DNA of 64,000 bases. Source: Caenorhabditis elegans (Eukaryota; Nematoda; Chromadorea; Rhabditida; Rhabditidae). The notes below the pieces were generated by a model. That model saw only the letters and a program-made list of their open reading frames with translations, was not told the DNA's origin and ran no database searches. Location: the NCBI RefSeq assembly GCF_000002985.6, contig NC_003283.11:13020001-13084000 (forward strand). The letters run 5' to 3'. Both the position numbers and the translations under genes were made by a program. Positions 1 to 18,755 of the stretch are shown here, in pieces. Within the stretch, counting starts at the first letter, position 1, and each line of letters starts with the position of its first letter.

Positions 1-3000
1 AATGGTTGCTCCACAAGATTCTCGATCTCAAAACTTGTTCACCTTGGATACTGTAAGTTTTTCCGAGATTCCCATCTAAAAACTTACTTCTTAATTCTAT
101 TTATATATCAAACTATACTTTTATACTACTAACAAACTCAGAAAAAGTGCCTCTAAGGAACTTGAACACACAAACGCAATTATCTATGAATGCTTTCTAG
201 TGAGAAAAAGCGGACGGCTGCTCGCTCTGGAAAAATAATGCAATTTTTGCAGATGAGTGGAGAGATTCGTTTGGCCAAAAGTATGGACCGAGAAGTTCTT
301 GATAAACATATACTGAAGGTGGGTAATTTGTTGTGATGTGGAGCACTAGAGCTGCAAAATTATCGAGGAAAAATATTTTGTTGTTAGAAAAAACTTTGGA
401 ATATTTATTACCGAATTTAAACTTTTTTTAAAAATGTGCACACACAGATAATTTAGAAAATCTCATTGTTTAACAATTCCCTTTCATTATATATTTTTTC
501 CAGGTCACAGCTTACGAGAGGGTTGATCCAACAATATCGGCTAGTACGACTGTAGTTGTTCACGTTCTAGATGTTCAGGACAATAGCCCGATTTTCGAAA
601 AAGATTCTTATTTTGGAGAAATCCGCGAAGATGCTCCGGTGAGTCTTCTATTCAATTCATTCTTACACCCATTCCATTTTCATTCATTCATTTACACTCT
701 GCGTATCTTGTAACTCTTATAATATTATTCTATCTCTATTCTCCTCCTATTTTCCTAATTCGAACGACGAGCTCTTCGGGTCGGTGGACGCTTCTCCGGG
801 ACGAAACAACAGCTTGTAATTAGCGAGTGCTTTTGCATAGATAGTGTTACATTTGAAGAGACGTAAATAATATGCGCGAGAGGATTCACCTGTCAATGTG
901 TGTGTGGATACAATACAGTTTGAAAGTGTCACTATATATTGGATTAGCCAAAGGGAAAGTGGAGAATAACGGTTGAATAAAGAAATAATAAATAGGTAGG
1001 ATAAAATGAATAATACGATTTTACAAAGGAAAATATGAAGACGAACAAATAGGCGTAAGAAATTTCAATTAAATCTAGCGGGATCAAATAAATGCCACTA
1101 ATGTCAACTTGTTAAGTTCTATAGTCCAGAATAGGTTCGGTTCATGCTCTTTTATGGCTGAAATACGATGCAAAAGTTTAGTTTTTGTACTGAAAGCTTC
1201 AAATTTATCGAAAAACGAAAATCATTTGAGCTGAACGTTGAAGTTGGAAATCTTCAGCTGTAACACTTTTACGGCTCATTCGGAAACACTGGAACGTATT
1301 CGTTTTCTTTATTCAAAAATTCTTCGATCTCCTCAATCTCCTTTGTTGGCATATTCTGATATTTTTGACATTTTCCAATTTAGTTCTTGCGGGCTTACCG
1401 ATTTCCATATTAATTCATTTTTTCCACGCCAAGTGCCAGTCCGAATTACTTGGTTTTTGGTATAAATTTCCATTCCATTTTCCCTGGCTCCCTCCTTCCG
1501 TCGCCTCTAATTTCCCCCGAGACACATACTCGTAGTACTCCTATTTTTGAGAGCGAGTGACCACCAGTATTCAGAAAAAAGGTTCTCAAAAAAGGTGAAG
1601 GGTGTAGCTCATAAATCAAACACACCTACTACATACTTCATCGTCTTTTGCCACTTTTCCATCTTCCAAAAGCCCCTCTTTTCGAAGCACGCAACATTGT
1701 TCCAGTCGGAAAAGATGTCTAAATCTCTCAAAATTGAATGCTACCTCATCCAAATGACCATCTGTCATCAGACGACGGCTTCACAGAGCACCCTCGAGCA
1801 GGAAAATTAGAGCCCGAAAATGAATGTTTGCCGTCCGTCAGGAAGAAGGACACCAACACCGTGTATGCATGGGTACGGGAAGAGTGTATATCAGAGTTAG
1901 AGACGCAGGTAAACACGGGAGTCAGAGACGGATGAGCCAGTAAAATTGTGAAAGCTGAAGATGAATCAAAAGAGGGTTTGAGGTTGCACAAAAGGTGGAG
2001 GATTATATTATTTATGTGTAACTACTGAGATTAATGGAATGCTAGAACTGATTACCTCTGCTAACTATAAAAAGGTTGCAGAACTTCTAGGATCTTCGGC
2101 ACAAAACGTTCTTCACGTTTTTTCTTCAATGAAAACTATGAAAAAGCAATCAGCAACTATCAAATCTGAAACTTGATAAAAGATTCTCGCGATCTAAATA
2201 CAATTGAAAAGCTCTGTAGTTTTTTCCTAAACCGCCTTCAAAATTTCAAGAACCTAATTTCTTCCCGACGAAAAACATAAAAATATAAAGTACCAATATT
2301 GTCTTCGTGAAAAACCAAGATCTAAATGGATATATCTTTTCATTTCCTACAACCCAAAATTTCATCATCATAGCCATTTCGTTGCCTTCTCACACCCAAT
2401 AATGAGATGAGTCGTGTCGTTTCTTCGAATCGTAAAGCGACCGCCGTCGCCACCATTCTCGCCGTCACCACCGCCCCTAGTTGCACTAGCTTCGAATATA
2501 TAATTAAAGGATGGGAGAAAAAGGGGGTAGAGTGAGCATGTGTAGTACATGAAGACAAGGGCATAGAAATCCAAAGTGATATTGGAGTAAGTAACTAACT
2601 CGAACCACTTGAAATTTGGAATGAAACGGAAATATGCTGGCAATGACATCCATCTTGAGAATCTAATGAAAATATATTATCTTTCAGATTGGCACCACTG
2701 TTCTATCGGTTTTTGCGAGAGATTTGGATTCTGGAGAAAATGGAGAAATTGAGTATTCATTGGGTGAAGGAAATGGAAAGAATCTTTTGGCAATTAATGC
2801 AAAAAGTGGAGTCATTCAGACAGCCGCACCTTTGGATCGTGAAACACTTTCTCTCATTCGCCTAGATGTGATTGCTAGTGATAAAGGAACTCCAAAAAGA
2901 GAATCAACTGCTATGGTTGAGATTACTGTAGTTGATGTGAATGATAATGCTCCAGTTTTTGCATCGGATTCATATAATGTTACTATCTTGGAGAATATAA

Positions 3001-6000
3001 CAATTCCTGCGGTGATTGCTACAGTAAAAGCAACTGATGAAGATTTTGGAACAAATGGGAAAGTACACTACTCGATGGCTTCATCCTCAGGAATTGGAGG
3101 TCTAACAATTGATTATTCAACTGGAGAAGTAACTCTTAGAGAACGAATCGATGCCAAAAACTCTCCGATAACTGCAGTAATCCGTGCAAAAGATGGAGCA
3201 CAGCCAGCCCTTTCCAGCACAGTTCCACTCACAATTAATGTTATTGACATTAATGATCATGCTCCAACTCTTATCGCTGCGCAGAAAATGATAACTCTTG
3301 AAGAGAATGTAGCAATTGGAGAAGAGGTTGGAAGAGTTTATGCTATTGATGAAGACAGTGGACCTAATGGAATTATAAAGTGAGAAAGGAAATAAGTTTG
3401 GAAGGTTCAAGGGTAGTTTTCAGATATTCTATGGAAGGATCGGAAGACTTTATTATTGATGAAGATAGTGGATTGATAAAGACAACAAAACTTCTAGATC
3501 GTGAGACAACTGCACGATATTCTTTAAAAGTAAGTATATTTTAATTTCGATAATTTAATTTCGGCAAACCGAGTTTTAAATTCAATTCTACTCCCAGGTC
3601 ACAGCAAGAGATATGGGAACTCCTTCACTGAATACTTCAACGACGATCGCAGTGGTATTGAAAGATATCAACGATAATGCACCGACTTTCGATAAAAAAG
3701 AATATAATGTGACGATATCTGAAGAAATGCCACGTGGAAGTCAGATCATCACACTGAAAGCAGTTGACAACGATGAAGATCAGAAAATCACGTATCGAAT
3801 CGAAGAGGCCGATAGAGAAGTGTTCAGTATTTTGGATATTGGAGATCAGGGTGCAATTTTGAGTGTTTCTGGAGAATTGAAACGTCAAGATCATAAAGTT
3901 AGAGTCGAAATCTCTGCAACAGATCAAGGTGGATTACAAGGAAGATGTGTAGTGAATGTGTTCATTGATGATGTCAATTCGGCACCGTATTTCAATGATC
4001 ATCCATTTTCTGTGAAAATTCCAGAGCATTCACCTATTGGATATCCGGTTATTACTTTGAAAGTAAGTTTTTTTTCATACTTCGGTTTTTATGGATTGAA
4101 GCATTTTTATGTTTCTTCAAACCTTCGAAAAAAGCGAATCCCAAATTCTGCCAATTGGCATGTAAAACAGCGACCTAATTATGAGCTTCATAGAAATTTT
4201 GACGCTACTCCGCCTTTAAACATATTTATTCTAACTTTTCAGGCAGAAGACCATGATCGTGGTGATAATGCTCGTATTGTCTATTCCATTGATTCCTCTC
4301 AATTTTTCCGAATTGACCCATCTTCTGGAGACATTTCTGTATCTTCCGACCTGGATCGTGAAGATCGTGCCACGTTCTCCGTCATCGTGACAGCTTCAGA
4401 TCATGCAAGTCCACCGCTTAACACGTCAACACAAATTGAAGTGATTCTGGATGACAGTGAGTTGTTTCGCTTCCATTTTATTAATATCTCTGACGGCGGA
4501 TCTCATCCACATTTTGACATATTCAAATATGGGCAAGTGTTTCTTTTGACTGCATACGCGCATTTTGTTCTGCCATAACAGAACAACGACAACTGACAAA
4601 TGGCCAGATGTGTTAGAGCATTGCCAGACAAGATAGTGTTGAGGGTAATGCAAATCTGAGAGAGACGCAGTAAGTGTCAGAGAAAACACGATTATTTACG
4701 GAAATTAGGGTTCGGTCGGTATTGTGTGAGAAGACAGAAGGAGCAGGAAATGTCGGGAGGAACGAGAAACAAGCAAAACTAATAATGTGCAAATTAGGGA
4801 AATTGCGTTAAAAATGCAAAACGTTTTTCGAATCTTTTCATAAATTAAATTGAAATTTCAGTAAATGACAACTCACCACAGTTTACATCTTCAAGCTATG
4901 CTGCCACAATTTCAGAAGATATTCCGGTTGGGACTTCATTTCTACAGGTAAATTGTTCATCCGTGTCAAAAAAAAGTATTTTATTTTTTAAGTGGAGTAG
5001 CGCGGTTCTGTTAAAATTTACAGTTTTCGCAAATTGTCAAGTTTAGAGAAATATAGATCAAGTTCTAAGTTCTACAAAAATATATAACTTTTTGAGACAA
5101 TTTGAACATTTTATGCGCTATTCCATTTTTTATATGGTATTTCTAAACAAAAACTTTATCCTGCAAGTTCAGAAATCAGAAAAAAATTAAACTTCATTTT
5201 AATCGTAAAACCGCTGAGCACAATAAAACTTTGTTTAGGTATCTGCAATTGACGCTGACATCGGTCCAAATGGAATTGTCGACTACTTCCTAAACGAATC
5301 TTCCTCATCTCCTTCCATTCAACTTTTTCGACTGGACCGCACATCGGGAACTCTTCGTGTCAGCTCAAAGCTTGATCGTGAGCAGTTTGCAGTGTAAGTG
5401 TGTTACATTTGTTAGGGTCAACCAATCCGGGATTAAGAGCATGTCCATAAGTGAGAAGGGGGCTAACACCTGCGCGGATTGCTCAATGAGCCCTCATTTG
5501 ACCGGGTGTCACTGTTTTCAATGGGATGGATGAATGAATGGAACATGGTTTTTCTCAAGTGCCAACAGATTGCGCGACGGCGAATAAAAAAATGAGACTT
5601 GCATTATAATTTATGGGAGCACAAATTAGATTAGAAAATAATGTTTTCAAATAAGAAGAGAGTTTAAATTTCAGAATTGTTCTACCGATATTCGCAAGAG
5701 ACCGAGGAACACCCTCGCTGTCTGCTGCATCTGAAATCACACTGACTCTCTCCGATGTCAATGATAATGCTCCAACATTTGAGCAACTCTCTTATGACCT
5801 GTATATTGCTGAAAACTCTCCAGTTGGTTCAACAGTTGGAACAATTGTTGCAAGAGATGCAGATGAGGGAGATAATGCTGATATTTCATTCAGAATTTTT
5901 GGAGGTGCTGATGCCAAACTTTTTGATATTGAAGGTAGGATCTTTCCATTTTTTTTCGGATCAAACATTTTTAATTTCAGAAGATGCTGAACAAAATGGA

Positions 6001-9000
6001 GTTGTACGAATTCTGACGAGAGCTGAATTCGATTACGAAGCCAAGGCAAACAAATTCTTCTTCGAATTACAAGCAAGTAGTGGACAATTGTCTTCAACTG
6101 TTCCAGTTAGAATCCACGTGTCAGATGTGAATGACAATAAGCCTGCACTGAAGGATTTTGTGATTCTAATGAACAGATTTGATAATGTGCAAATGGCTCG
6201 ACAAATTGGATTTATTCCGGCATTTGACCCTGATCAGAATGCAACACTTGAGTACTTTTTGGAGGAAAATGATTTGATTGAGGCTGAAAAATACACAGGA
6301 AAGATTTTAGTAAAACAAGAATGGAAAAGAAATATGGATGTTTCATTCAAGACATGTGTTTCGGATGGAGCAAATACAGAATGTTCTACGTGTCGATTTA
6401 TTCATGTATTGGTTGAACCTGAATGGCTCTCGGAGAGCTTTACATTGAGTTTGGCTAGAATGACTGTTGATGATTTCTGGGATCCATTGGTTTTTCAAAG
6501 ATTTAGGTTTGTTTAACTTATATGTATTAAATTTGAAGATTATTTGTTTCAGAGATGCCATGTCCACTTTGAGCAACTGGAAACCTTCTGACATTCACGT
6601 CATTGGTGTCAAGCAGCATCTTGATGACGTCATCTACATAAATATCGCAATCACAGACCATGGAAGAGTCGTACGGTGAGAATTGTGGGAGAGAGAACAG
6701 AAACACACAATAACACTCAAATCAATCATAAAAAGAGAGGCCGCCATTGCTCAAGGGGGACGCCTCGTTACTACTGGTAGTCAAGTGTTGTGTTACGGGA
6801 AATGAGTTTGGGGATTTAGATTTGGATGTGCAATTAGATGCGCTTCACAATAATTCGATTTGTTTTGACAAACAATGAAATGCATGCGCCGGCTCCCCCT
6901 CGCGTGTTTCCACCCTCTTGAAACGACATATTTTCAAGAAGTAGTGTAATTGAATATGAATAATGGAGCAAGAAAGCGTTGCTAATGTTAAGGAAAGTAT
7001 AACAAAGTGAGAAAATGCAAAAAATCTAGCCACCTAGGGGACTCGAACCCCTGACCTTAAGATTAAAAGTCTCACGCTCTACCAACTGAGCTAAGGAGGC
7101 CCTGAAAAGGACAAAATTCCGTCTCTACCGTTTTGAAATGGTATATACCAAGTATAGAGACGCAGAGAATCAGGAAACTGTTATGCATGTAAATGAACAC
7201 AACATTTTACAGAGGCTGGAGAGCGATTGAATTGGTGAAAGAATCAATCAAAAAGTTGGAAAAGATGACATTATTGCAAGTTGAAGTTATAAGAGATGAA
7301 TCATGTGCAAATGAGCCATGTTCCCATATGGCGAAGTGCAGACAAACTCAAAAGTTTGTTGGAGAAATGAAGGCTCACGAGACTGATAATTTCATTGCTC
7401 GTACCTTGAACACAGTGAATACATTTGTTTGTGAATGTCCATCTGGATTTACAAGTGAGTTTAATGCATAATTATTCTAACAACCAATTGCCTTTTTTCC
7501 AGGTTCAGGTGCCCATGGTGACTGTGATACGCGTATCGATGAGTGTTATCGTGGCAGGTGCTCTAATAATTCGACTTGCGTTGCGTTCGAGAACACGTAT
7601 CAATGCGAATGCAAACCCGGCTGGATAGGTACGTAATTCAGCTAATTGACTAAATGGGATTGAGAGTGAAAAGGGAGAGAAGGAACACTCGTAAAATTGA
7701 ATGTTGGCAAGACCTCTTTCGCCTCAATAAAATGGTCCTTATGAGGTTGAAATTTGCATTAGCAAATTGGCTCAGAAAATAAGTGGCTATTGGACAACGA
7801 AAAATAGTAAAACCAGACAATTGAGGGAAAAGGTATTTTTAAAGATAATTGCTCAGAAAATTTTATTTGTTATTTTTATTATAGCTATTTAAATTTGTAT
7901 GTTTTCACAACCTGAAGAGGTTTTTTCTCAAATAAAATAGTTTAGTTGAGTGAGTACTCATATTCAAATTTCCAACTTAAAAGTATTGTCACGTAATGTT
8001 TCAATAACTAAAAATTGTTACCCTGGTCCACTTTGCAAGAGCAATTTGCGTGTCACTTCAGTTTCCCCGGTGCCGGTCGTTTGTTTCAACTTGGGCCCGG
8101 AAGTACCCCATCTAAGTCTGTGACCCCTTTTCCGTCCCACTTCCATGTCGATGTGCTTCGTGTGAAAGAGTAACATATATCGAAATTTCAAGAAATGGGG
8201 ATCTTTTGAATATTTAGTTTTATAAATTGCAGGTCGTCACTGTGAAATTTCGGTTCATGCTCTCACGTGTGTTCCTGGTTACTGTATGTCAGATTCTCTG
8301 TGTGAACTCGACGGGAATCAAATGAAATGTAGACATTGTAAATATCACGGAGAAGATACAGATGAACGATGCCGCCTCAGAAGTGTATCTTTTGATGGAG
8401 AAGGTCTTCTTAATGTGAATCTAGACTTACCACGTACCCAATGGACCATGAAATTCAGGTAAGCTTAAAGAAAAGAAGATCCCAAAAAAAACTTTTTTTT
8501 TTTTTGAAGAGTCTCTACAATTGCACATAACGGTGTTTTGGTATTCACCGGTGACAAAAGAAGCGACTTTGTGGAAGTTTCTGTTGTGGATCGAGTACTA
8601 AAGGTTTGCCAAAAAATGTCTAGGAAAGGGATTTTCATTTTCTAGTTTTCAGGTTCAATTCTCATTAGGCGGAGAGAAAATTGATGCGAAAATGGAAAAT
8701 GATGTGGAAAATAGAATAAATGATGGTGAATGGCATACTGTTGCTTTGGAGTACTCGAATAAAGTAAGGAGTTATGGAAATTAAGATTAAAATTTAGAAT
8801 TTATTGTTAATTTTAAATGTTCAGAAAAAATCTTTAATTTTCAGCAAATCACAATGTCTCTGGATGATTGTGAAACTAATCCATCCCTTCTTCTGAATAC
8901 TTCTCCAAATTGTGCTATTCGTGCGAAGCTGAACCTCGAGAAAAAGTATGTTTCTCTTCTCTATTGGTAATAATTCATAATTACGAGGGAGACCTCCCCT

Positions 9001-16812: not shown

Positions 16813-17303
16813 AACTTTTGTTAGTGTCAAAAATTACCTTTTGCACCACAGCAACACAGCATGGGTCCGACGATTCAATAGTAAAACCAAGTGTACATTT
16901 TTTAAAGTTTTATTTTAACCATCATAATTTTTTTGAAAAGAAAGAACATGAAATGCGAGCAATTTTTGTTTGGAAGCGAAGGAAATGAGAAAAAGAAAGA
17001 AAAACATGAATAGAATACGTTAATGGATAGAATCACAGGAAATTGTTTGATGTACTTACAAGGGAAGTCTTTGAGGGGGTCCGTAGATTTGGGGTTCTCA
17101 TGCTAAAATTCCTACAGAAGAGTGTTAGTTATGATCTCTCCAAAAAATTTAGCTGCCCCGGTCAAGTTTCAGCAAAGTTATGACGTTTTGAAAATTCAGT
17201 TAAAAACACCATTGAAATCCACTGTCTTACCATGCAGTCCACGCAAATCTCAGCTTGCGTGACCACCGAAAATGTGACACCCACAACATTGAGTTGAAAA
17301 ATG

Positions 17304-17374
17304 TCCTCGGTGGCCGAGTTGGGAGTGCGCGCGTCTGATAAGATTTAAGCTTTGGTTCGATTCCTTCTATTTTT
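17304..17374 (+). promoter_or_regulatory. tRNA-like Pol III A/B boxes in the left Tc4-like arm
   Basis: A box TGGCCGAGTTG (17311-17321, 10 of 11 to TRGYNNAGYGG) and B box GGTTCGATTCC (17354-17364, perfect to GGTTCGANTCC) are 43 nt apart, the spacing of a tRNA gene. A T5 run at 17370-17374 could terminate Pol III. No matching 3' acceptor stem follows, so this is tRNA-derived and not a tRNA. It reads toward the element centre. Confidence 0.65.
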
Positions 17375-18338
17375 GTAAGTTGAATAAAGTTGTAAAACAA
17401 CTCATTCAAACATTTTTGCGCATTTTTAAAGTGATTTTATTCTTATTCGGGAACCTAGAATCATTGTCCGCACTTTTTGGAAATTTTTATTTTTTTCATT
17501 TTTGCTCAAAATTTCTTGATCAACTCCAAGCAAAAAAATCAAAAAATTTCATTTTTCTAAACAATTATGAAATTGCTATGTTGTTGTTCAGAAATGTATG
17601 AAACGTACATTACACAAGTTTTAACTCTCTATTCGCAAGTAAACCGTCGAAATGATCTACATCTCACGAACTTTGTGCAAAATATTTAACCAACTTTGAA
17701 GTTGCATAACTTCATTGAGATAAATTATTGTGAAAAATGATCAACTAACAAAATGTTTGTTGAATAACAGTGAACAAAGTTTTAGTTATAAACTTTTTGA
17801 TACCTCCAGCTACAAAGAAGAAAACAAGGTTGGCATTTGGCTAGTTTTTCTATTAACATTGTGTTTTGGAAAACGGTCACAACTTTTTGGTGGCTGAAGG
17901 TATCAAAAAGTTTATAACTAAAACTTTGTTCACTGTTATTCAACAAACATTTTGTTAGTTGATCATTTTTCACAATAATTTATCTCAACGAAGTTATGCA
18001 ACTTCAAAGTTGGTTAAATATTTTGCACAAAGTTCGTGAGATGTAGATCATTTCGACGGTTTACTTGCGAATAGAGAGTTAAAACTTGTGTAATGTACGT
18101 TTCATACATTTCTGAACAACAACATAGCAATTTCATAATTGTTTAGAAAAATGAAATTTTTTGATTTTTTTGCTTGGAGTTGATCAAGAAATTTTGAGCA
18201 AAAATGAAAAAAATAAAAATTTCCAAAAAGTGCGGACAATGATTCTAGGTTCCCGAATAAGAATAAAATCACTTTAAAAAGGCGCAAAAATGTTTGAATA
18301 GGTTGTTTAAAACTTTATTCAACTTACAAAAATATTTC

Positions 18339-18409
18339 AAAAATAGAAGGAATCGAACCAAAGCCTAAATCTTATCAGACGCGCGCACTCCCAACTCGGC
18401 CACCGAGGA
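18339..18409 (-). promoter_or_regulatory. Mirror copy of the tRNA-like boxes in the right Tc4-like arm
   Basis: The reverse complements of the same A box (18392-18402) and B box (18349-18359) are intact at exactly mirrored positions. This copy also reads toward the centre, so the two are convergent. Confidence 0.65.
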
Positions 18410-18755
18410 CATTTTTCAACTCAATGTGGTGGGTGTCACATTTTCGGTGGTCACGCAAGCTGAGATTTGCGTGGATTGCATGGTAAGACAGTGGATTTCA
18501 ATGGTGTTTTTAACTGAAATTTCAAAACGTCATAACTTTGCTGAAACTTGACCGGGGCAGCTAAATTTTTTGGAGAGATCATAACTAACACTCTTCTGTA
18601 GGAATTTTAGCATGAGAACCCCAAATCTACGGACCTCCTCAAAGACTTCCCTTGTTAGGATTTGATACAAATGGGGTCGAATAAAACAGTTTTAATTACA
18701 AAAATGTGAAATACAAGTAGGGTGATCTCTACTACAAAACGAAGCGAGTTTCTTG

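Follow-up and report, generated by a model that had tools for sequence, protein, structure and literature searches.

Inward-facing tRNA-type box units in a Tc5-related foldback transposon of Caenorhabditis elegans and at the ends of its Tc4/Tc5-type relatives

Type-2 Pol III boxes within mobile DNA are already known, and the Pol III promoters of mobile elements usually belong to SINEs. We know of no group of cut-and-paste transposons in which such boxes are conserved at both ends. Two systems described in C. elegans come closest to the arrangement reported here. In the mir-1829 family, box A/B units with a T5 run near the end of the short RNA drive Pol III transcription, and scrambling of either box abolishes expression of mir-1829b (PMC12157501). 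These loci resemble the present unit in their boxes and T5, but they are intronic and their product is a miRNA. Extra-TFIIIC sites also bear both an A and a B box and lie in repeats of the same species (PMC6950938). The repeats under these sites are CeRep3 in 214 of 225 cases, described in that paper as putative tRNA pseudogenes, unlike the DNA-transposon ends considered here, and the Pol III-bound sites that overlap any repeat number 43 (PMC6950938). The main texts of PMC12157501 and PMC6950938 do not mention Tc4. The preponderance of CeRep3 indicates that Tc4/Tc5 ends are not prominent in the data of PMC6950938, but near-identical copies map poorly. In the open-access literature, outside which the original descriptions of Tc4, Tc4v and Tc5 lie, we found no work tying Tc4 or Tc5 to Pol III or TFIIIC.

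The locus described here is part of a 64,000-nucleotide stretch of the C. elegans genome (C5:13020001-13084000, hereafter the window), in which a foldback DNA transposon forms a palindrome of 1,596 bp at positions 17059-18654. Its inverted-repeat arm pairs are 98% (I1) and 96% (I2) complementary, and the inner arms found by the inverted-repeat search lie on either side of a 62-nt loop (17821-17882). The element is flanked by a TTA target-site duplication on the left (17056-17058) and a matching TTA on the right (18655-18657). We assign it to a non-autonomous, Tc5-related family, here called W, with tips CAAGGGAAGTC and a full length of ~1605 bp. The target-site duplication of Tc5-related transposons is TNA, usually within CTNAG, and among the 24 W copies in which both ends are present, 20 have a duplicated TNA. 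The window element and Tc5 have in common CAAGGGAAG tips, a subterminal block at 54-138 and terminal repeats that each contain an inward-facing unit of boxes. They differ in size and layout: the window element is 1.6 kb long and palindromic, and the Tc5 copy examined measures 3,195 bp, with transposase domains and terminal repeats of ~475 bp. Full-length W copies are made up of two arms of 772-798 nt, with no space for a transposase, and a longer relative of W (L088, 86% identity) contains no ORF above 98 aa in its segment 1200-3600.

The first-pass annotation of this DNA had called the element a Tc4-like palindrome. It is a palindrome, but its likeness to Tc4 does not extend beyond the superfamily level. 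The candidate identification as Tc4 itself is ruled out by the tips (CAAGGGAAGTC against CTAGGGAATGACC in Tc4v), by which the element is nearer to Tc5 than to Tc4. A Tc4 foldback (L096) shares with W the foldback layout of ~1.6 kb and a box unit at the matching place; the Tc4/Tc4v tips are unlike those of W, and the gapped BLAST match between the arms has 59% identity and starts at the unit. Tc6, a 1.6-kb palindromic C. elegans element present in 20-30 copies, fits W by length, palindrome and copy number, and the W family may be Tc6.

Each arm of the window element carries one box unit, recognized by pattern matches in the sequence. In the left arm, an A box (TGGCCGAGTTGG) at 17311-17322 (+) is followed by a B box (GGTTCGATTCC) at 17354-17364 (+) and a terminator-like T5 at 17370-17374 (+). 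In the right arm, the A box (TGGCCGAGTTGG) is at 18391-18402 (-), the B box (GGTTCGATTCC) at 18349-18359 (-) and the T5 at 18339-18343 (-), with a further T5 starting at 18332. The T5 starts at +6 nt past the end of the B box. The left arm has lost 11 bp just behind its B box relative to the right arm and to the other aligned W copies, and because of this deletion it has a single TATTTTTG, where the right arm and the other copies have two. Two sequence features of a type-2 Pol III promoter, namely A and B boxes at tRNA spacing and a T-run close behind the B box, are present. The annotation's description of a tRNA-spaced A box, a perfect B box and a T5 in each arm, both units facing the centre of the element, is borne out by these positions. 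The mirrored coordinates to which it drew attention are real, but they carry no independent weight, since they follow from the reverse complementarity of the two arms.

A relaxed A-to-B pattern, composed after inspection of the window sequence, matches twice in the 64-kb window, once in each arm, and nowhere in 200 Markov-1 windows. In the genome (100,286,401 bases, 7 contigs), the exact pattern TGGCCGAGNTGG-N25-45-GGTTCGATTCC has 44 matches, every one at a W-family locus, and its reversed control has none. A genome search with the B box only gives 539 matches, compared to 52 for the reversed control.

The window element is not a tRNA gene. ARAGORN finds no tRNA in it, and neither does Rfam at gathering scores or at E up to 10, so the tRNA-model scoring of the arms envisaged in the annotation yields nothing, and a tRNA gene is rejected because neither program detects a cloverleaf. 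No tRNA is reported in L088, Tc5, Tc4v or a W copy either. The Rfam matches that do appear in the element (MIR821, MIR6274 etc.) are inverted-repeat effects far under the gathering scores. The short RNAs predicted for W, L088, Tc5 and an 888-bp foldback described below fold no better than shuffles (z from +1.1 to +2.3), and the RNA predicted for the left end of Tc4v does slightly better than its shuffles, with a z of -1.65, against -1.49 for the real tRNA of the window. ARAGORN and Rfam detect a single tRNA in the window, a tRNA-Lys (TTT) at 7027-7101 (-).

The unit is also found in larger relatives of W that contain transposase domains. A genome search for the DNA-binding domain of the Tc5 transposase located Tc4v (L093, on C1) and Tc5 (L094, on C2), and in each both published qPCR primers match exactly (primers from PMC6829131). 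Both copies contain Tc5-type transposase domains, with two of the domain matches just below the Pfam cut-offs. Inward tRNA-type box units are present at both ends of Tc5 and at both ends of Tc4v. In Tc5, a single unit is found in identical form at the two ends. The ends of Tc4v have a tip of ~165 bp in common and then diverge, and their units are separate, with unlike letters between the boxes. The right-end Tc4v unit occurs twice in L095 (C3:7770261-7771148), an 888-bp near-perfect foldback of the Tc4v right end, and the left-end unit occurs twice in the Tc4 foldback L096. Together with W, the units of L095 and L096 indicate that at least three kinds of end gave rise to foldbacks, each with its own unit. 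Because foldbacks are palindromes of unit-bearing ends, the window element displays the unit twice and convergently. The unit of L095 forms two more convergent pairs, on C1 and C5.

The canonical unit is at the expected place in 10 of 10 full Tc5 ends and in 35 of 42 Tc4-left arms, both among the matches listed, and in 13 of 14 Tc4v-right arms. Of the 38 matches assigned to Tc4-left, 35 are supported by a match to the inner arm at the expected distance, and for one of the patterns the letters of 6 of 36 matches were read. The Tc4 representative L096 was picked through a pattern whose A box contains C, whereas T occupies this position in most Tc4-left units among the matches listed. In Tc5 and Tc4-left the B box has the sequence GGTTCGGTTCC, in which G replaces a near-invariant A of the B-box consensus, GGTTCRANTCC. 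Searches with three patterns gave 150 listed matches, of which 105 are in Tc4/Tc5/W-type transposons and 45 elsewhere, the latter all from a single pattern and, judging by their appearance, located in tRNA genes and tRNA-like repeats. Convergent neighbours less than 6 kb apart number 45 among these 150; all of them are transposon pairs, and none involves the 45 other matches.

Short Tc5-type elements form a separate class. At least 12 short inverted elements (268-681 bp), found through at least 34 partial matches to the Tc5 end and examined by pattern only, have no match of the three box patterns within 1.5 kb. In these non-autonomous pairs (e.g. C4:2353820-2354450), the match to Tc5 covers the outer end only, mostly ~134 bp. 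Inside two of these pairs, C1:198288-198921 and C2:634919-635558, the B-box-only pattern has no match among the matches listed.

The unit starts 253 nt from the tip in W, 259 nt in L088, 242 nt at both ends of Tc5, 241 nt in the Tc4 foldback, 244 and 200 nt at the left and right ends of Tc4v, and 192 nt in the 888-bp foldback. The starts thus range from 192 to 259 nt, and the span from A to B is 54 or 55 nt in the 8 arms measured. By chance, such A-B pairs are expected at ~5e-9 per 800-nt arm (Markov-1 model, with a pattern composed after seeing the sequences). The first run of T5 or longer is found 6-24 nt past the B box in 8 of these 8 partly non-independent arms, against a background in which a fraction of 0.14-0.43 of arm positions have such a run within 25 nt. 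The boxes of W and Tc5 are identical at 21 of 22 positions and the letters between them at 17 of 30; for Tc5 and the left end of Tc4v, the corresponding values are 21 of 22 and 18 of 30.

In composition-corrected ungapped scoring, the unit is the best segment in five of six comparisons between families and the second best in W versus Tc5, where the longer block at 54-138, which is also conserved, outscores it. When the scoring is repeated with 100 shuffles, and with L096 as well as the left end of Tc4v as Tc4 representative, the unit is best in four of six comparisons and second in the other two. With either representative, it scores above 97 or more of the 100 shuffles in W versus Tc5, W versus Tc4, Tc5 versus Tc4 and Tc5 versus Tc4v-right. 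It stays within the shuffle range in W versus Tc4v-right, where 34 of 100 shuffles reach its score, and in Tc4 versus Tc4v-right, where 45 (Tc4v-left) or 7 (L096) of 100 do so. Plain +1/-1 scoring, which is confounded by T-runs, gives the unit the lead in only one of six comparisons, with T-rich stretches and the subterminal block (here 58-138) ahead of it. A hypergeometric test of the boxes in gapped alignments gives P values of 0.22, 0.011, 0.010, 0.43, 0.002 and 0.028. The box excess is absent in W versus L088 (P 0.22) and in W versus Tc4v-left (P 0.43), and in two more gapped comparisons the boxes lie outside the aligned part.

Within the W family, the boxes do not stand out. Searches with the W arm returned at least 42 and 60 matches; 32 loci were read, and 52 arms covering the unit were aligned. 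Both ends are present in 24 copies, 12 of which measure 1,602-1,612 bp, and exact A and B boxes are at the expected place in 44 of the 52 arms. Variable sites make up 7 of 23 positions in the boxes and 191 of 616 in the rest of the arm (one-sided P 0.58), as compared to 17 of 31 in the stretch that separates the boxes (P 0.065). When the same shape is placed elsewhere along the arm, 156 of 652 placements are at least as conserved as the boxes. The annotation had held that the boxes are better conserved than a tRNA fossil would require and had suggested an alignment of copies as a check. The claim agrees with the comparisons between transposon families but not with those among W copies (P 0.58), whose alignment gives no support by itself (7/23 versus 191/616) because the copies are too alike.

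On the strength of these sequence comparisons, we consider it probable that Tc4/Tc5-type ends have kept the unit by selection, as a type-2 Pol III promoter or TFIIIC-binding site of tRNA origin. That the tRNA fold is mostly lost while the boxes and their 54-55-nt span are retained points to selection on putative TFIIIC binding rather than on RNA structure. It is unlikely, although worth serious consideration, that a tRNA gene or pseudogene was captured a single time by an ancestral end, with the boxes persisting by descent only. The canonical tRNA spacing of the boxes would suit such a fossil, as would the Tc4v-left RNA, which folds relative to shuffles about as well as a real tRNA, the lack of excess box conservation in W copies, and the comparisons of the Tc4v right end with W and Tc4 that stay within shuffles. 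However, between most families the boxes have outlasted the sequence that separates them as well as most of the arm, and the two ends of Tc4v, which diverge past ~165 bp, nevertheless both retain units with unlike spacers. The conserved position of the boxes in the terminal repeats is also what would be seen if they were subterminal transposase-binding sites that resemble A and B boxes. Internal sites for the transposase occur in many DNA transposons, which speaks for this explanation, and W and Tc5 possess another, longer conserved block (54-138). But both stretches fit the tRNA promoter consensus, at tRNA spacing and with T-runs behind them, and short Tc5-type elements exist without the canonical unit; we regard transposase binding as an improbable explanation.

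The annotation had linked the two units to RNAi, suggesting that leaky convergent Pol III transcription gives complementary RNAs or hairpins that feed this pathway. The units of the window element do converge, and Tc4 activity is seen in mutants of the mutator pathway but not in a piRNA-pathway mutant (PMC6829131, PMC7255803). However, since the arms are inverted copies, the short inward transcripts predicted from them have the same sequence bar single changes and are not complementary. Runs of T5 or longer that a transcript would have to traverse number 9 (left) and 10 (right) ahead of the loop, and 14 (left) and 13 (right) ahead of the mirror unit; from either side, one more such run is located past the mirror unit. 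Furthermore, Tc5 and Tc4v bear units although they are not whole palindromes. A Pol II transcript across a palindrome gives a hairpin without any Pol III, which also counts against a role of convergent Pol III transcription. A dsRNA mechanism based on the units of the window element thus appears unlikely, and we attach very little probability to convergent Pol III transcripts as the explanation of the unit.

If the unit is a selected Pol III promoter or TFIIIC site, TFIIIC would bind it at each transposon end, and Pol III would make an RNA of ~80-100 nt per end, with the two arms of a foldback giving identical RNAs. Alternatively, TFIIIC alone could reside on the units, as it does at extra-TFIIIC sites; since 504 of 1,029 TFIIIC sites lack Pol III (PMC6950938), binding that leads to no transcription is plausible too. 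The benefit to the element might be that its ends stay open and unsilenced, or that its interior is insulated. A broader and more tentative proposal is that Tc4, Tc4v, Tc5, W and their foldbacks exploit TFIIIC/Pol III at both ends, where inward promoters might keep the ends free of nucleosomes or hold them at the nuclear pore, shield the element from silencing and allow transposase access. Mobility seems not to need the unit, given the short Tc5-type elements without a pattern match, and the simplest form of a mobility benefit is doubtful. A conserved tRNA-type promoter in cut-and-paste ends would tie TFIIIC to the life cycle of DNA transposons, or to their escape from silencing, in a model animal.

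Three loci encountered in the searches have peculiarities of their own. L088 (C4:9057400-9062200), the 86% relative of W, measures 3,623 bp from tip to tip and sits within a bigger palindrome, which takes up positions 1-4747 of the locus with an inverted identity of 98% and whose flanks are mirrored as well. At C2:2950139-2952419, tRNA-like A/B units form a tandem array, many of them ~155 bp apart, which is perhaps a CeRep3-type cluster. In L070 (C6:5906800-5914000), a W copy at 1165-5551 of the locus is interrupted by bacterial transposon DNA. The insert contains two inverted 402-aa ORFs with identical translation, of which the one scanned is an IS4-family transposase, as well as a Tn10-type TetC repressor gene and a partial Tet(B) efflux gene, and most likely entered the worm assembly as an artefact of an E. 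coli clone.
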